DNA from: Algoriphagus sp.
Lineage (GTDB): Bacteria; Bacteroidota; Bacteroidia; Cytophagales; Cyclobacteriaceae
Length of the DNA: 64,000 nucleotides
NCBI RefSeq assembly: GCF_029254265.1
Contig: NZ_JAQWXX010000082.1
Location: 1 to 64,000 of the forward strand
Reading direction: 5' to 3'
A program made the position numbers and the translations under genes. Every line of letters begins with the position of its first letter. Position 1 is the stretch's first letter. Below are positions 157-5,846 of the stretch, piece by piece. Below the pieces are notes generated by a model. That model was not told the origin of the DNA. It was given only the letters and a program-made list of their open reading frames with translations, and did not search any database.

Positions 157-1392
157 TTAGATTTTCAACTTTTCTGCCCAGCCCATCAATGGCCCACTAC
201 TGATACTAGAGATCAGTGCCAAAATCACCAATCCGATAAAGAGAGACTCGGTGATCAACCCATTTTCCAAAGCGATTAACCCAAGTATGATATCCATACT
301 CCCACGCGTACTTAATCCAAACCCGACTACCATAGCTTTTTTTCGAGGTAAACTTGCAAATCGTCCTCCGATATAGGCTCCCCAGTATTTGGTCAAGAGA
401 CCCACTATGACCACTACCCCTACAATTCCAGGATCAAAGGCTTCAATGAAATTCACTTTGAGTCCGATCGATACAAAAAAGATCGGTGCGAAGATATTAT
501 TGATAAACTGATGGAGAATTTCCTTTGCTTTTTCAGTTAGATACTCAGAATCTCCAAGCGCAACCCCGATTATGAATGCTCCAAAAATCGCATGGATCCC
601 TATGAATTCGGTAAAAGATGCTGCCAAAAAGCAGATTGCTAGGGAAAGTGAAAGTAATCCTCCCGGCCATGCGAGCTTCTTATTGATCCATGGGAGAGTT
701 TTGTTGATCAATCCCTTGCCCAGAGTCAGCATGAAAAATGTGAAAAATAGGGTCAGCCCTATAGTAGGCCAAACGCCCAATCCTCCACTTCCAGACTCGG
801 AGAGCGAAAGAATCACAGAAAACACTATCCATCCCAATACATCCACAATCATTGCAGCGGCAATGATGAGAAGTCCCGTTGGAGTTTTGAATAGATTCAA
901 ATCCATCAAAACCCTCGCTACTACTGCCAGTGCAGTGATAGAGATGGCTAGTCCAAAAAAAGTGGAAGCCACAATTCGATCATTGATGTTGACACCGAGA
1001 AACTCAGGAAATGCATAGGCAACCACAAAACCGGCAATAATGGGTAGCGCCATCGAAGCCACTGCAATTTTCAGCGCATTTTTGCCCTGATTCCATACGA
1101 CTTGAAGCTCCACCTCCAATCCTGCAATGAAGAGTAACAACACCACAGATATTTGCACAAAACCATCCAGTGCAATATTGGACATGGCATGAGACCCAAA
1201 TAAATAATCCTGAGCAGCTGGAAAAAGTGATCCTAAAATTGTTGGACCAATTATAATTCCCGCCAGAATCTCCCCGACAACGGCAGGCTGCCTTAGTTTG
1301 CGGGCAATCTCGGCAAAGATTCGCGCCATGATCAACATGGTCGCAAGCTGAAGGAGAAGGTTGATAACCTCCTTATGGTTTAATGTTTCCAT
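157..1392 (-). CDS. cation:proton antiporter (Kef/CPA2-type Na+/H+ exchanger)
   Basis: 411 aa polytopic membrane ORF with CPA2-like motifs (QPAVVGEILAGIIIGPTILG, GIHAIFGAFIIGVALG). Confidence 0.9.
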   Translation of the reverse strand: METLNHKEVINLLLQLATMLIMARIFAEIARKLRQPAVVGEILAGIIIGPTILGSLFPAAQDYLFGSHAMSNIALDGFVQISVVLLLFIAGLEVELQVVWNQGKNALKIAVASMALPIIAGFVVAYAFPEFLGVNINDRIVASTFFGLAISITALAVVARVLMDLNLFKTPTGLLIIAAAMIVDVLGWIVFSVILSLSESGSGGLGVWPTIGLTLFFTFFMLTLGKGLINKTLPWINKKLAWPGGLLSLSLAICFLAASFTEFIGIHAIFGAFIIGVALGDSEYLTEKAKEILHQFINNIFAPIFFVSIGLKVNFIEAFDPGIVGVVVIVGLLTKYWGAYIGGRFASLPRKKAMVVGFGLSTRGSMDIILGLIALENGLITESLFIGLVILALISSISSGPLMGWAEKLKI

Positions 1393-1398
1393 GGAGGT

Positions 1399-2229
1399 CT
1401 AATTTTTAACGATTAATAGATTACAAGGCAAGGTACTCAAGAGGTCCTCAAGATCATGCGGGAATAAGCGGTCAAAAAATGTCAGCCGTCGATCATCTCC
1501 CACTACCAAAAGATCTGCACCTATTTTCTCACAAAATCTACCCAACTCCACAGCCCATTTCCCACCGGTTACTTTAATATTTATTTTTAGAGTACTGACG
1601 TCAATATCCTTTAGGATTTCTTCCACATAGTCCATTTCATCCTGTACCAATTGCCTTCGGGTATTGGCTATTTCTTCTTCCGAATCCTCACCTGCAGTAC
1701 CCATTTGAAGGCCATACATCTTGATTTCATTTAGAATATGAACCTGATCTGCTTGGACCGCTTTGGAAAAAACAGCACCCTGAGCGATCACAAAAGGGGT
1801 GATTTCAAGTTGGGTCCCATTGATCACTACCTTGGAAAAGCTCGTAGTCTCAGGTTTTGGATCAATCAGTGTGAGTACAGAGCATGGCGATTTACGGATG
1901 ATTTTTCTTCCCACCGATCCGAGGTAGTATTTCAGTAAGCCTTCCTCTTTCAATGCTCCCGCCACCAAAAGATTTACTTCCTCCTCTTTACAGGCTTCTA
2001 ATATCATTTTCACAGGCTTGCCCTGTTTCCAGATTAGTTTGGTTCGATCTCGATCCAGACCATGCCGATCCAAGATTTCCTGAAACTTGGACTCCTGCTC
2101 TTCTGACTTTTCACCGACATGGATCAAAATCAAATCAGATTCGAAAAGGATGGAAAGCCGCTTCACTTCAGCAAGTAAGGCTTCCATTCGTGGGGAAAAA
2201 GCAATAGCAAGGGCGATTTTTCGAAACAT
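1399..2229 (-). CDS. universal stress protein (tandem UspA domains)
   Basis: GSVGRKIIRKSPCSVLTL and GADLLVVGDDRR...LPCNLLIV motifs; ORF extends to 2298 but the Usp-like start is MFRKIALAIAFS at 2229. Confidence 0.85.
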   Translation of the reverse strand: MFRKIALAIAFSPRMEALLAEVKRLSILFESDLILIHVGEKSEEQESKFQEILDRHGLDRDRTKLIWKQGKPVKMILEACKEEEVNLLVAGALKEEGLLKYYLGSVGRKIIRKSPCSVLTLIDPKPETTSFSKVVINGTQLEITPFVIAQGAVFSKAVQADQVHILNEIKMYGLQMGTAGEDSEEEIANTRRQLVQDEMDYVEEILKDIDVSTLKINIKVTGGKWAVELGRFCEKIGADLLVVGDDRRLTFFDRLFPHDLEDLLSTLPCNLLIVKN

Positions 2230-2429
2230 AAATTGGAGACTAAGTACTTTAAATAAGCGAATTTTCCTTTTCATTCCAAGATTCTCAATGGAATCCATTT
2301 ATCCCGAACAGGTTCCATTTATGCCCTAATTTGACTTTCGGAAAAAGGAAGACCCATTTTTCAATATTTTTTGACAAAATTTAATGTCTGGTCTTTTTAG
2401 AATCCAATAAAAATAACCCTATCTCATTT

Positions 2430-4040
2430 ATGAAAAAATCTATATTCAGCTGGTTGTTGATTTCCAGTCTGGGATTTTTCGGAACAGCATTCGCACAGTC
2501 CGATGATTACCCTACGCTGAGTCAAGTCAATCAGCGCATGCAGCAAGTGGCAAAAAACAGCAATGCCACTCTCACTTCTCTGATCAAAACAGCTGGCGGA
2601 AAGGACATCTGGGTACTCAAAGTGGGTACTGGTGATCTGGATCAAAAACCCGCTATCGCAGTCGTCGGAGGAGTTGAAGGATTCCATGTCTTAAGTACCG
2701 AACTCGCAGTTCAATTTGCAGAAAAACTAGTCGCAGAGCATGCAGATGCATTGCAAACTACCACTTTCTACATTTTTCCCAATATGTCGCCTGATGCTTA
2801 CGAGCAATACCACGCTGCCTTGAAATATGAGCGGAGAGGTAATGCCATTTCCGTCGATCATGACCGTGATGGAAAAGCAGGAGAGAATGGCTATTCAGAT
2901 TTGAATGGAGATGGTATGATCACTTGGATGCGTGTTGAAGATCCTATGGGTGATTACGTGGTATCAAAGCAAGATGATCGCGTTCTCGAAAAAGCTGATC
3001 GATCCAAAGGTGAAGCAGGAAAATACTTGGTGTATAAAGAAAGTCGAGATGATGATAAAGACGGCAATTTCGCTGAGGATCTGAAAGAGGGAATCGCTTT
3101 CAATAAATCAATGACCTACAAATTCCCGGTTTTCCAACCATTGGCCGGAGACATTCCAGTATCACAGCTGGAATCTCGTGCGATGCTTGATTACCTTTTT
3201 GAGCAGTGGAATATTTTCGCTTTTGTCACTTTTTCACCAGCTAATAACCTTAGTACTCCACTAAAATACAATGCTGGAGATGCTCGCAAACGAGTAGTAA
3301 CTTCCATACTAGAGAAAGACCAGACGATAAATGCGATGATTTCTGGCATTTACAACGAGACAGTTTCTCAGAAAGCCTTCCAGCAGAACAATCAGGGAAC
3401 TGACGGAGACTTTTTCCAATGGGCCTATTTCCACTTCGGAAGATTGAGTTTCGGTACGCCAGGCTATTGGGTGCCTGAATACAAAGGTGCTGATGGCAAA
3501 GGGAAATCAAATGCCGAAGCGAATTATTTGGCTTGGGCAGATTCTCTGGGTTGGAATGACGTTTTCGTGCCTTGGACTGAAATCCAGCATCCTGACTTCC
3601 CGGGAAAAAAAGTTGAGGTTGGAGGAATCAAACCTTTTCTGATGGCAAATCCCCCTTATGTGCAAGTGGGGAAAATTGCAGACGAGCATACTGATTTCAT
3701 CTTGAAACTTGCCGCGATGCAACCAAAACTGGAAATGCTTAACATCAAGATTGAAAGCTTAGGAAATGGTCTGACCAGAATCTCTGCTGATCTTTTCAAT
3801 AACTCTCCGCTTCCTACACATTCAGATATGGGTGAGCGCTCCAGATGGCTTCGCAAAGTCAGGGTAGATCTCGATGTACCTCAGGATCGAATCATTTCAG
3901 GTGATAAAATTCAACTGATAGATGTAATCGATGCCTATCAAAAAGTATCACTGAGCTGGATCGTTAAAGGATCTGGAGCTGTACCAGTGAAAGCCGGTGC
4001 GCCACATGTCGGTTTTATAAATGCAAACTTTAAACTCTAA
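2430..4040 (+). CDS. M14 carboxypeptidase-like secreted protein, active-site residues degenerate
   Basis: 536 aa, signal peptide, Asp-rich DHDRDGKAGENGYSDLNGDGMITW insert shared with the next ORF; HxxE zinc motif replaced by EGFH. Confidence 0.75.
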   Translation: MKKSIFSWLLISSLGFFGTAFAQSDDYPTLSQVNQRMQQVAKNSNATLTSLIKTAGGKDIWVLKVGTGDLDQKPAIAVVGGVEGFHVLSTELAVQFAEKLVAEHADALQTTTFYIFPNMSPDAYEQYHAALKYERRGNAISVDHDRDGKAGENGYSDLNGDGMITWMRVEDPMGDYVVSKQDDRVLEKADRSKGEAGKYLVYKESRDDDKDGNFAEDLKEGIAFNKSMTYKFPVFQPLAGDIPVSQLESRAMLDYLFEQWNIFAFVTFSPANNLSTPLKYNAGDARKRVVTSILEKDQTINAMISGIYNETVSQKAFQQNNQGTDGDFFQWAYFHFGRLSFGTPGYWVPEYKGADGKGKSNAEANYLAWADSLGWNDVFVPWTEIQHPDFPGKKVEVGGIKPFLMANPPYVQVGKIADEHTDFILKLAAMQPKLEMLNIKIESLGNGLTRISADLFNNSPLPTHSDMGERSRWLRKVRVDLDVPQDRIISGDKIQLIDVIDAYQKVSLSWIVKGSGAVPVKAGAPHVGFINANFKL

Positions 4041-4046
4041 GCCATC

Positions 4047-5792
4047 ATGAAAAAGATAAATACCTTAAAAATGATCGTTATGCTGGCTTTTGCTACCCTT
4101 TGGATAGCAGTTAACCCAGCAAAAGCGCAAGAGAAATTCTTTCGGGCTGTGGGAACTCCCCACAAACCAAAAGTGGAATTGACTTTCAATAAATACTATA
4201 CTTACGAAGGTTTGGTGGATGCAATGAAGAAAATTGCAGCCGCTCATCCGGGATTGGCAAAGATTGAATCAATCGGAAAATCCTATCTAGGTAGAGACAT
4301 TATGACCTTGACTATTACCGATTTTTCGGTTGGCAAATCAGAAGAAAAACCAGCCATGTGGATCGATGGAAATATTCACTCCAACGAGATTCAAGGCGGG
4401 GAATTCTCCCTATATGCAGCTTGGTATCTGACCGAAATGCAAGGAGATAATGAATTTATTCAAGAACTACTTCGGGATAAGACCTTCTACATCACCCCTA
4501 CAATCAATCCAGATGCTCGAAATGACTTTTTCTTAGAACCAAATACCGCAAACTCTCCACGGTCAGGTATGATGGTGCTCGATAATGATGGAGATGGAAT
4601 GGCTGGAGAAGATGGAATGGATGACCTCGACGGCGATGGACATATCACGATGATGATCAGAAAATCACCAACGGGCAGATTTATCAAAGATCCGCAGGAT
4701 CCAAGAAAATTGATTATGGTCGAAGCAGATAAAGTTGGGGAATATGAAATGCTTGGTCAAGAAGGAACTGACGGTGATGGCGATGGTCGGGTAAATGATG
4801 ACGGGGTGGGCTATTACGATCCAAACCGGGATTGGGGATGGAATTGGCAGCCAGATTACATTCAACGAGGAGCACTCAGGTACCCATTTACACTTCCTGA
4901 AAACAGATCCGTGATGGAGTTTGTGATGAAACATCCAAATATTGCTGGCGCGCAAAGCTTTCACAATAGTGGCGGAATGATCCTTCGAGGTCCAGGCGCT
5001 GAAGAAGATGTCAACACCTACAATCGAGAAGATATTCGCATCTACGATGTCATCGGGAAAAAAGGAGAAGAATTACTTCCTGGATATAGATATATCGTGG
5101 TTTACAAGGATTTGTATTCTGTTTTCGGCGGTGAACTGGATTGGTTCTATGGCAATCGTGGAATCTTCACTTATTCCAATGAATTGATGACTTCTTACCT
5201 CTATTTCCATAAGCAATCTGCCGGAAGAGGAAATCAAGATGAAAACTTCGATGTGGATAAATACCTGACTATGGGCGATGCTTTTGTGAACTGGCATGAA
5301 TATGAGCATCCTCAGTTTGGTACTGTCGAGATTGGTGGATTCAAAAAGACCTTTGGACGCGCACATCCAGGATTCTTGCTAGAGCAAGATGCGCATCGAA
5401 ATGCTGCATTTACGATTTACCATGCATATCACACTCCGAAGCTGAGCATCATGGATGTGAAGGAAGAAGAGCTTGGAGGCGGATTGAAAGCTATCACTGC
5501 GACGATCTTTAATGAGCGATTGATGCCAACTCACGCCAGCCAGGATTTGAAATACAAAATCGAGCGACCGGATTATGTGACGATTTCAGGAGCTAAAGTG
5601 GTAGCTGGATTCGTCGTAGAAGATGAAGACTTCAATAAGTTCGCCGAACAAAAAATGTCTCCGGAGCGAATTGCTGTCGAAAATGTACCGGGAATGAGTG
5701 CGGTAAAAGTGAAGTGGATTGTATCTTCAGGATCAAATTATTCCATCACAGTGGACTCTGCCAAAGGCGGAAAAGCCAGCTGGAAGAAGTAA
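4047..5792 (+). CDS. M14 family zinc carboxypeptidase, secreted
   Basis: Signal peptide; WIDGNIHSNEIQGGE (HxxE), QSFHNSGG (third His ligand), FTYSNELMTS; Asp-rich EF-hand-like insert. Confidence 0.88.
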   Translation: MKKINTLKMIVMLAFATLWIAVNPAKAQEKFFRAVGTPHKPKVELTFNKYYTYEGLVDAMKKIAAAHPGLAKIESIGKSYLGRDIMTLTITDFSVGKSEEKPAMWIDGNIHSNEIQGGEFSLYAAWYLTEMQGDNEFIQELLRDKTFYITPTINPDARNDFFLEPNTANSPRSGMMVLDNDGDGMAGEDGMDDLDGDGHITMMIRKSPTGRFIKDPQDPRKLIMVEADKVGEYEMLGQEGTDGDGDGRVNDDGVGYYDPNRDWGWNWQPDYIQRGALRYPFTLPENRSVMEFVMKHPNIAGAQSFHNSGGMILRGPGAEEDVNTYNREDIRIYDVIGKKGEELLPGYRYIVVYKDLYSVFGGELDWFYGNRGIFTYSNELMTSYLYFHKQSAGRGNQDENFDVDKYLTMGDAFVNWHEYEHPQFGTVEIGGFKKTFGRAHPGFLLEQDAHRNAAFTIYHAYHTPKLSIMDVKEEELGGGLKAITATIFNERLMPTHASQDLKYKIERPDYVTISGAKVVAGFVVEDEDFNKFAEQKMSPERIAVENVPGMSAVKVKWIVSSGSNYSITVDSAKGGKASWKK

Positions 5793-5809
5793 AAATTCTT
5801 AACGTATTA

Positions 5810-5846
5810 AATCCCCGGTTTTTGATTAAATCGGGGATTTTTTTTG
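5810..5846 (+). terminator. Rho-independent terminator
   Basis: AATCCCCG...CGGGGATT stem followed by T run, after M14 stop. Confidence 0.8.

Follow-up and report, generated by a model that had tools for sequence, protein, structure and literature searches.

Two neighbouring genes in the window (the whole stretch of 64,000 nucleotides of Algoriphagus sp. DNA that was analysed) encode a pair of M14 peptidase homologues in which the second protein, P2, retains the residues of an active enzyme and the first, P1, appears to be catalytically dead. Because the dead and the intact copy are inherited together across the phylum, P1 probably works together with the live enzyme and is no leftover in decay. 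The reading that we favour, and consider rather likely, is that P1 is an obligate non-catalytic subunit that would associate with P2 in a periplasmic or secreted M14 module, in the manner of alpha-MPP.

Gene layout and active-site residues

The features of the locus are listed in Table 1. As an earlier note on this DNA had described, both reading frames are intact and full-length, lie 6 bp apart, begin with a signal-peptide-like N-terminus (...AKA/QE in P2, read by eye) and share an Asp-rich insert that resembles a calcium site. Both products are presumably exported to the periplasm or secreted, and their genes are probably translationally coupled. The hairpin and T run downstream of P2 are a weak sign, consistent with a two-gene operon: this hairpin is one of 4 matches where 3.4 are expected by chance, so it carries little weight alone. 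The window is contig 18 of its genome, and the nearest named relative is A. marinus, with 96% identity of P1.

Table 1. Features of the P1-P2 locus (window coordinates)
Feature	Coordinates	Strand	Remarks
P1 (ORF1), M14-fold pseudopeptidase	2430..4040	+	536 aa; predicted secreted; C-terminal all-beta domain; lacks canonical zinc ligands and catalytic Glu
P1 signal peptide, AFA/QS	2430..2495	+	read by eye, from sequence inspection only
P1 E83-G-F-H86	2676..2687	+	opposite the HxxE zinc motif of M14
P1 Asp-rich insert (DHDRDGKAGENGYSDLNGDGMIT)	2856..2924	+	acidic D145, D147 and D157 invariant across P1
P1 N225-K226	3102..3107	+	aligned with Asn144-Arg145 of M14 (carboxylate binding); mostly retained
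P1 S269	3234..3236	+	opposite the third zinc ligand (His196, CPA numbering)
P1 P344	3459..3461	+	at the place of catalytic Glu270; Pro in 33/39 non-redundant P1s
Spacer, P1 stop to P2 start	4041..4046	+	6 bp; short spacing conserved in relatives
P2 (ORF2), intact M14 metallocarboxypeptidase	4047..5792	+	581 aa; predicted secreted; architecture as P1
P2 H111-S-N-E114 zinc motif	4377..4388	+	H and E invariant, 115/115
P2 H306, third zinc ligand	4962..4964	+	114/115
P2 E379, catalytic Glu	5181..5183	+	115/115
Terminator-like hairpin and T run	5809..5845	+	just 3' of the P2 stop

Peptidase_M14 (PF00246, cut-off 21.6 bits) is the only Pfam match, with scores of 55.1 bits for P1 and 119.5 bits for P2, and membership of family M16 (HxxEH) was not found. 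Automatic annotation would probably call both proteins active, as both match the general M14 model only, and would mislead for one of them. Their homology extends along almost the entire sequence (26% identity; BLASTP E 1e-26; profile-profile alignment E 2e-115). In P2, the M14 match begins at residue 58, after a short stretch ahead of the domain, and the protein matches a procarboxypeptidase A of the PDB by sequence (E 1.6e-15). The predicted structure of P1 alone (pLDDT 73.8, pTM 0.76) has a confidently modelled C-terminal beta-rich domain and low confidence around the former cleft. A Foldseek search of this model against the PDB returned carboxypeptidases as all of the best matches (E 3e-10), with modest TM-scores by target of about 0.4-0.55 in keeping with the low-confidence cleft. 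On the Pfam match and the model, the fold of P1 is that of M14.

In P2, R172, N260, R261 and Y357 are invariant in 115/115 sequences, and the zinc, Tyr and Glu positions line up with those of solved carboxypeptidases in the PDB. Position and motif suggest that R172 is the equivalent of Arg127, and N260-R261 that of Asn144-Arg145; with this assignment, P2 would possess the full set of active M14 residues (HxxE, His, Arg127, Asn144-Arg145, Tyr248 and Glu270).

The profile-profile alignment places H111, E114, N260, R261, H306 and E379 of P2 opposite E83, H86, N225, K226, S269 and P344 of P1, in agreement with the substitutions that had been listed for P1 (EGFH, His to Ser, Arg to Lys, Glu missing). 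R172 of P2 lies opposite a gap in P1, a point that the earlier note had not raised. Residues were counted in 115 P1 sequences and in a non-redundant subset of 39. No P1 among the 115 has a His at position 83 or 269, and none has a Glu within positions 342-346; neither the zinc ligands nor the catalytic Glu270 of an active M14 enzyme are in place. Position 269 is Gly in 24 and Ser in 13 of the non-redundant sequences (37/39 together). Hence the substitutions are real and belong to the P1 family as a whole, and P1, judged by its sequence, would be dead in the sense of neither binding zinc nor catalysing.

Two of the changes proposed earlier require qualification. The swapped order of Glu and His is present here and frequent, and yet not universal: position 83 is Glu in 26/39 and Asp in 7/39 non-redundant P1s, while position 86 is His in 25/39 and Q, Y, L, I, D or another residue in the remaining 14/39. 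The motif NKSM does place K226 opposite R261, but as an active-site change this is mild, since Asn is found in 34/39 and Lys or Arg in 38/39.

P1 also has conserved residues that P2 lacks at the aligned places, among them N273, Y333 and H335 (the last in 36/39 non-redundant P1s), which shows that P1 is under constraints of its own. N273 and L274 form a conserved P1-specific loop next to the former zinc site. When alternative zinc ligands were sought outside the Asp-rich insert and the residues common to P2 (H387, E396), no invariant trio of His, Glu or Asp stood out in the P1 sequences.

Other M14 copies were noted in passing. The same genome encodes a further M14 paralogue (G000:C104; L189:3934-5853, minus strand) that keeps HSGE, HRN and GDEL and has an Asp at the expected third zinc His (NSMDTRVP), as does a copy in a relative (L190); the Asp may reflect an altered metal site or result from the alignment. 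In genome G516, a second P2-like copy (L182:508-2232) lies beside an intact P2 and has LN for HN where the third zinc ligand is expected; here catalysis seems to have been lost a second time and independently. In genome G310 (L180:3234-4867), P1 is split into two overlapping frames (186 and 365 aa) ahead of two intact P2 copies, either by a true frameshift or by a sequencing error. Solo M14 relatives with intact zinc motifs (L135-L138, in G011, G081, G187 and G116) branch apart from P2, and no P1-like neighbour was found within the stretches fetched around them.

Co-inheritance and evolutionary history of the pair

The co-occurrence of the two genes across Cyclobacteriaceae, which had been suggested as a check, was examined in 198 genomes with an orthologue threshold of best E < 1e-100 for each protein. 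P1 and P2 were found in the same 53 genomes, and no genome was discordant. In a phylum sample of 396 genomes (P2 threshold E < 1e-60), P2 was present in 37, and 36 of these also had P1 or a piece of it; no genome of this sample had P1 only. The sole genome with P2 and no P1 (G329) has its P2 at the first bases of a contig, so that an upstream P1 would be cut off. These counts ignore the relatedness of the genomes, and the tree described below spans several families and classes.

Relevant observations on gene order can be summarized as follows:

(i). In 108/108 loci that hold both genes, P1 directly precedes P2 on the same strand. In most of them the spacing is 0-13 bp; overlaps of 4 bp are found in five distant loci, and larger negative spacings probably come from the first-start choices of the ORF finder.

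(ii). In one genome (G384), the two genes sit on separate contigs, neither of them near a contig end, and both are retained.

(iii). In about 60 loci of relatives (L039-L118; compare window positions 4038-4046), P1 and P2 are in frame, with one TAA and one to a few codons between them. Readthrough of this stop was rejected as a general feature, as distant pairs are out of frame or overlap by 4 bp. No fused P1-P2 gene was seen in the genomes searched (198 of the family and 396 of the phylum sample).

(iv). Upstream of P1, in divergent orientation, are genes for a cation-antiporter-like and a UspA-like protein (window positions 157-2298). Many Cyclobacteriaceae loci have this neighbourhood, but in other families it was not seen next to the pair. 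Since their conservation is limited to a part of the family, these flanking genes were rejected as parts of the module.

The pairing of P1 with P2 is more than chance. Both genes are under purifying selection: among pairs with dS of 0.3-1.5, the median dN/dS is 0.055 in P1 (85 pairs) and 0.025 in P2 (47 pairs), and matched pairs give a ratio of P1 dN to P2 dN of about 2.2. The possibility that P1 is a pseudogene or a sequencing error was rejected in view of an intact frame in more than 100 loci and a dN/dS of about 0.055. The idea that an intact pseudopeptidase is maintained together with an active partner, already put forward in the earlier note, is thus well supported by co-occurrence, synteny and selection.

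In the phylogenetic tree, P1s group on one side and P2s on the other, with branch support of 100/99 and 100/100; many families are represented on both sides, and one P1 clade covers several families and classes. This separation indicates that duplication and loss of catalysis predate the spread of the pair over the sampled phylum. Much the same groups recur in the P1 and the P2 tree. Sequences from another family (f7) lie nested among those of Cyclobacteriaceae, a pattern suggesting that the two genes are at times transferred together. The distances of P1 and P2 are correlated (0.875; partial correlation 0.70 given the UspA-like and antiporter-like neighbours), the highest value among six gene pairs tested; the correlation is supportive but confounded by shared ancestry.

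Possible roles of P1

Our preferred reading can be outlined as follows. P2 would be the zinc enzyme and the catalyst of the module. P1 would be an ancient duplicate that lost zinc binding and catalysis and retained the fold, the calcium-type Asp-rich insert and a basic residue where the C-terminus of a peptide would bind. The most economical mechanism is that P1, in a complex, stabilises P2 or completes a substrate-binding surface, as alpha-MPP does for beta-MPP; the help given to P2 might accordingly concern stability, presentation of the substrate or control of activity. A P2 of this clade practically never occurs in the absence of P1, and P2 is therefore likely to depend on P1. Adjacent, co-occurring genes with one apparently dead partner are also what would be expected of the genes of a heterodimer. 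A pathway in which both proteins act without forming a complex would account equally well for the pairing and joint inheritance of the genes, and the absence of a fused P1-P2 gene from the genomes searched is a point against contact. A joint AlphaFold2 model, in which the in-frame TAA was read as Gly and 46 natural pairs in register were supplied as paired rows, had low confidence (pTM 0.46, pLDDT 62) with a poorly folded P2 half, and is uninformative, favouring neither a heterodimer nor its absence.

Another explanation, which we regard as fairly unlikely, is that P1 is a separate binding protein of the same pathway, whose dead cleft captures the C-termini of peptides or of cell-wall material without a stable complex with P2. 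Retention of N-[K/R] at the carboxylate-binding position would suit such a function, as would the conserved N273-L274 loop beside the former zinc site, and vertebrate M14 pseudopeptidases do mainly bind matrix proteins (PMC11266112). By itself, however, capture of C-termini leaves the near-absence of P2 without P1 unexplained.

A role of P1 as an inhibitor or chaperone, keeping the protease silent or folded until export ends, seems to us quite improbable. In pancreatic procarboxypeptidases, this task falls to N-terminal prodomains; little sequence precedes the M14 domain of P2, and P1 is always encoded first, directly ahead of P2, an arrangement that would befit a helper of this kind. On the other hand, M14 enzymes without a prodomain exist and need no such helper, and no inhibitory element was recognised in P1.

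The least likely rival, a changed or relocated metal site built on the swapped E83..H86 and conserved polar residues such as H335 or N273, might appeal to the frequent acidic residue at position 83 (33/39), to H86 and H335, and to the binding of metal by Csd4 despite a non-canonical M14 motif (QxxE..H; PMC4220969), but we consider it highly improbable and the earlier suggestion of such a site disfavoured, because H86 is replaced in 14/39 non-redundant P1s, the third ligand place is Gly or Ser in nearly all, and the catalytic Glu is absent throughout, so that a shifted zinc site would have a swapped pair that is not universal and no third ligand.

Comparison with known systems

On the evidence above, we class P1 among pseudopeptidases of the M14 fold and regard its pairing with P2 as a variant on the dead/live peptidase pairs already known, with P1 as the candidate subunit of P2. 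Whether it amounts to a two-subunit bacterial M14 carboxypeptidase with an obligatory zinc-less subunit, in other words to an independent evolution of the MPP-type arrangement, is in our view evenly balanced.

P2 aligns with the canonical M14 enzymes CPA and CPT at the zinc, substrate and catalytic residues, and differs from them in its Asp-rich insert, its C-terminal beta domain and its P1 partner. A 2024 review of metallopeptidase pseudoenzymes lists M14 pseudopeptidases from animals (vertebrates) and yeast only (PMC11266112). A search of open-licence papers found no bacterial M14 pseudopeptidase, and a prior description elsewhere is possible. The eukaryotic proteins (AEBP1/ACLP, CPXM1, CPXM2, CPD domain III and Ecm14) share the M14 fold with P1 and, like it, are substituted at positions of the zinc site, Arg145 or Glu270 (Table 2 of PMC11266112). 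They carry, however, one to several active-site changes and all keep H69 (same table), whereas in P1 all three zinc ligands and the Glu are replaced. Neither are they operon partners of an active paralogue; CPD domain III shares its chain with active domains.

A caution against inferring function from motifs alone comes from Helicobacter pylori Csd4, a bacterial M14 protein with the non-canonical metal motif QxxE..H and a C-terminal Ig-like domain (PMC4220969). Csd4 is a working, metal-binding D,L-carboxypeptidase; P1, in contrast, lacks all three ligands at their expected positions.

In other peptidase families, the pairing of a pseudoenzyme with a live relative is already known. Prokaryotic MPP homologues of family M16 come from a two-gene operon (PMC11266112), and bacterial M16B heterodimers, both halves of which are needed for function, are described in a 2025 review (PMC12731061). 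MPP and the M16B pairs (TTHA1264/1265, SPH2681/2682, AlbF/AlbE) likewise consist of an active homologue and a zinc-less one, of about 50 kDa. They belong, however, to another family and fold (M16, HxxEH, clamshell cavity), and their complex is proven, while that of P1 and P2 is our inference. A dead/live M14 pair found across a bacterial phylum would offer a clean and genetically tractable case of the service that a pseudopeptidase renders to its partner.
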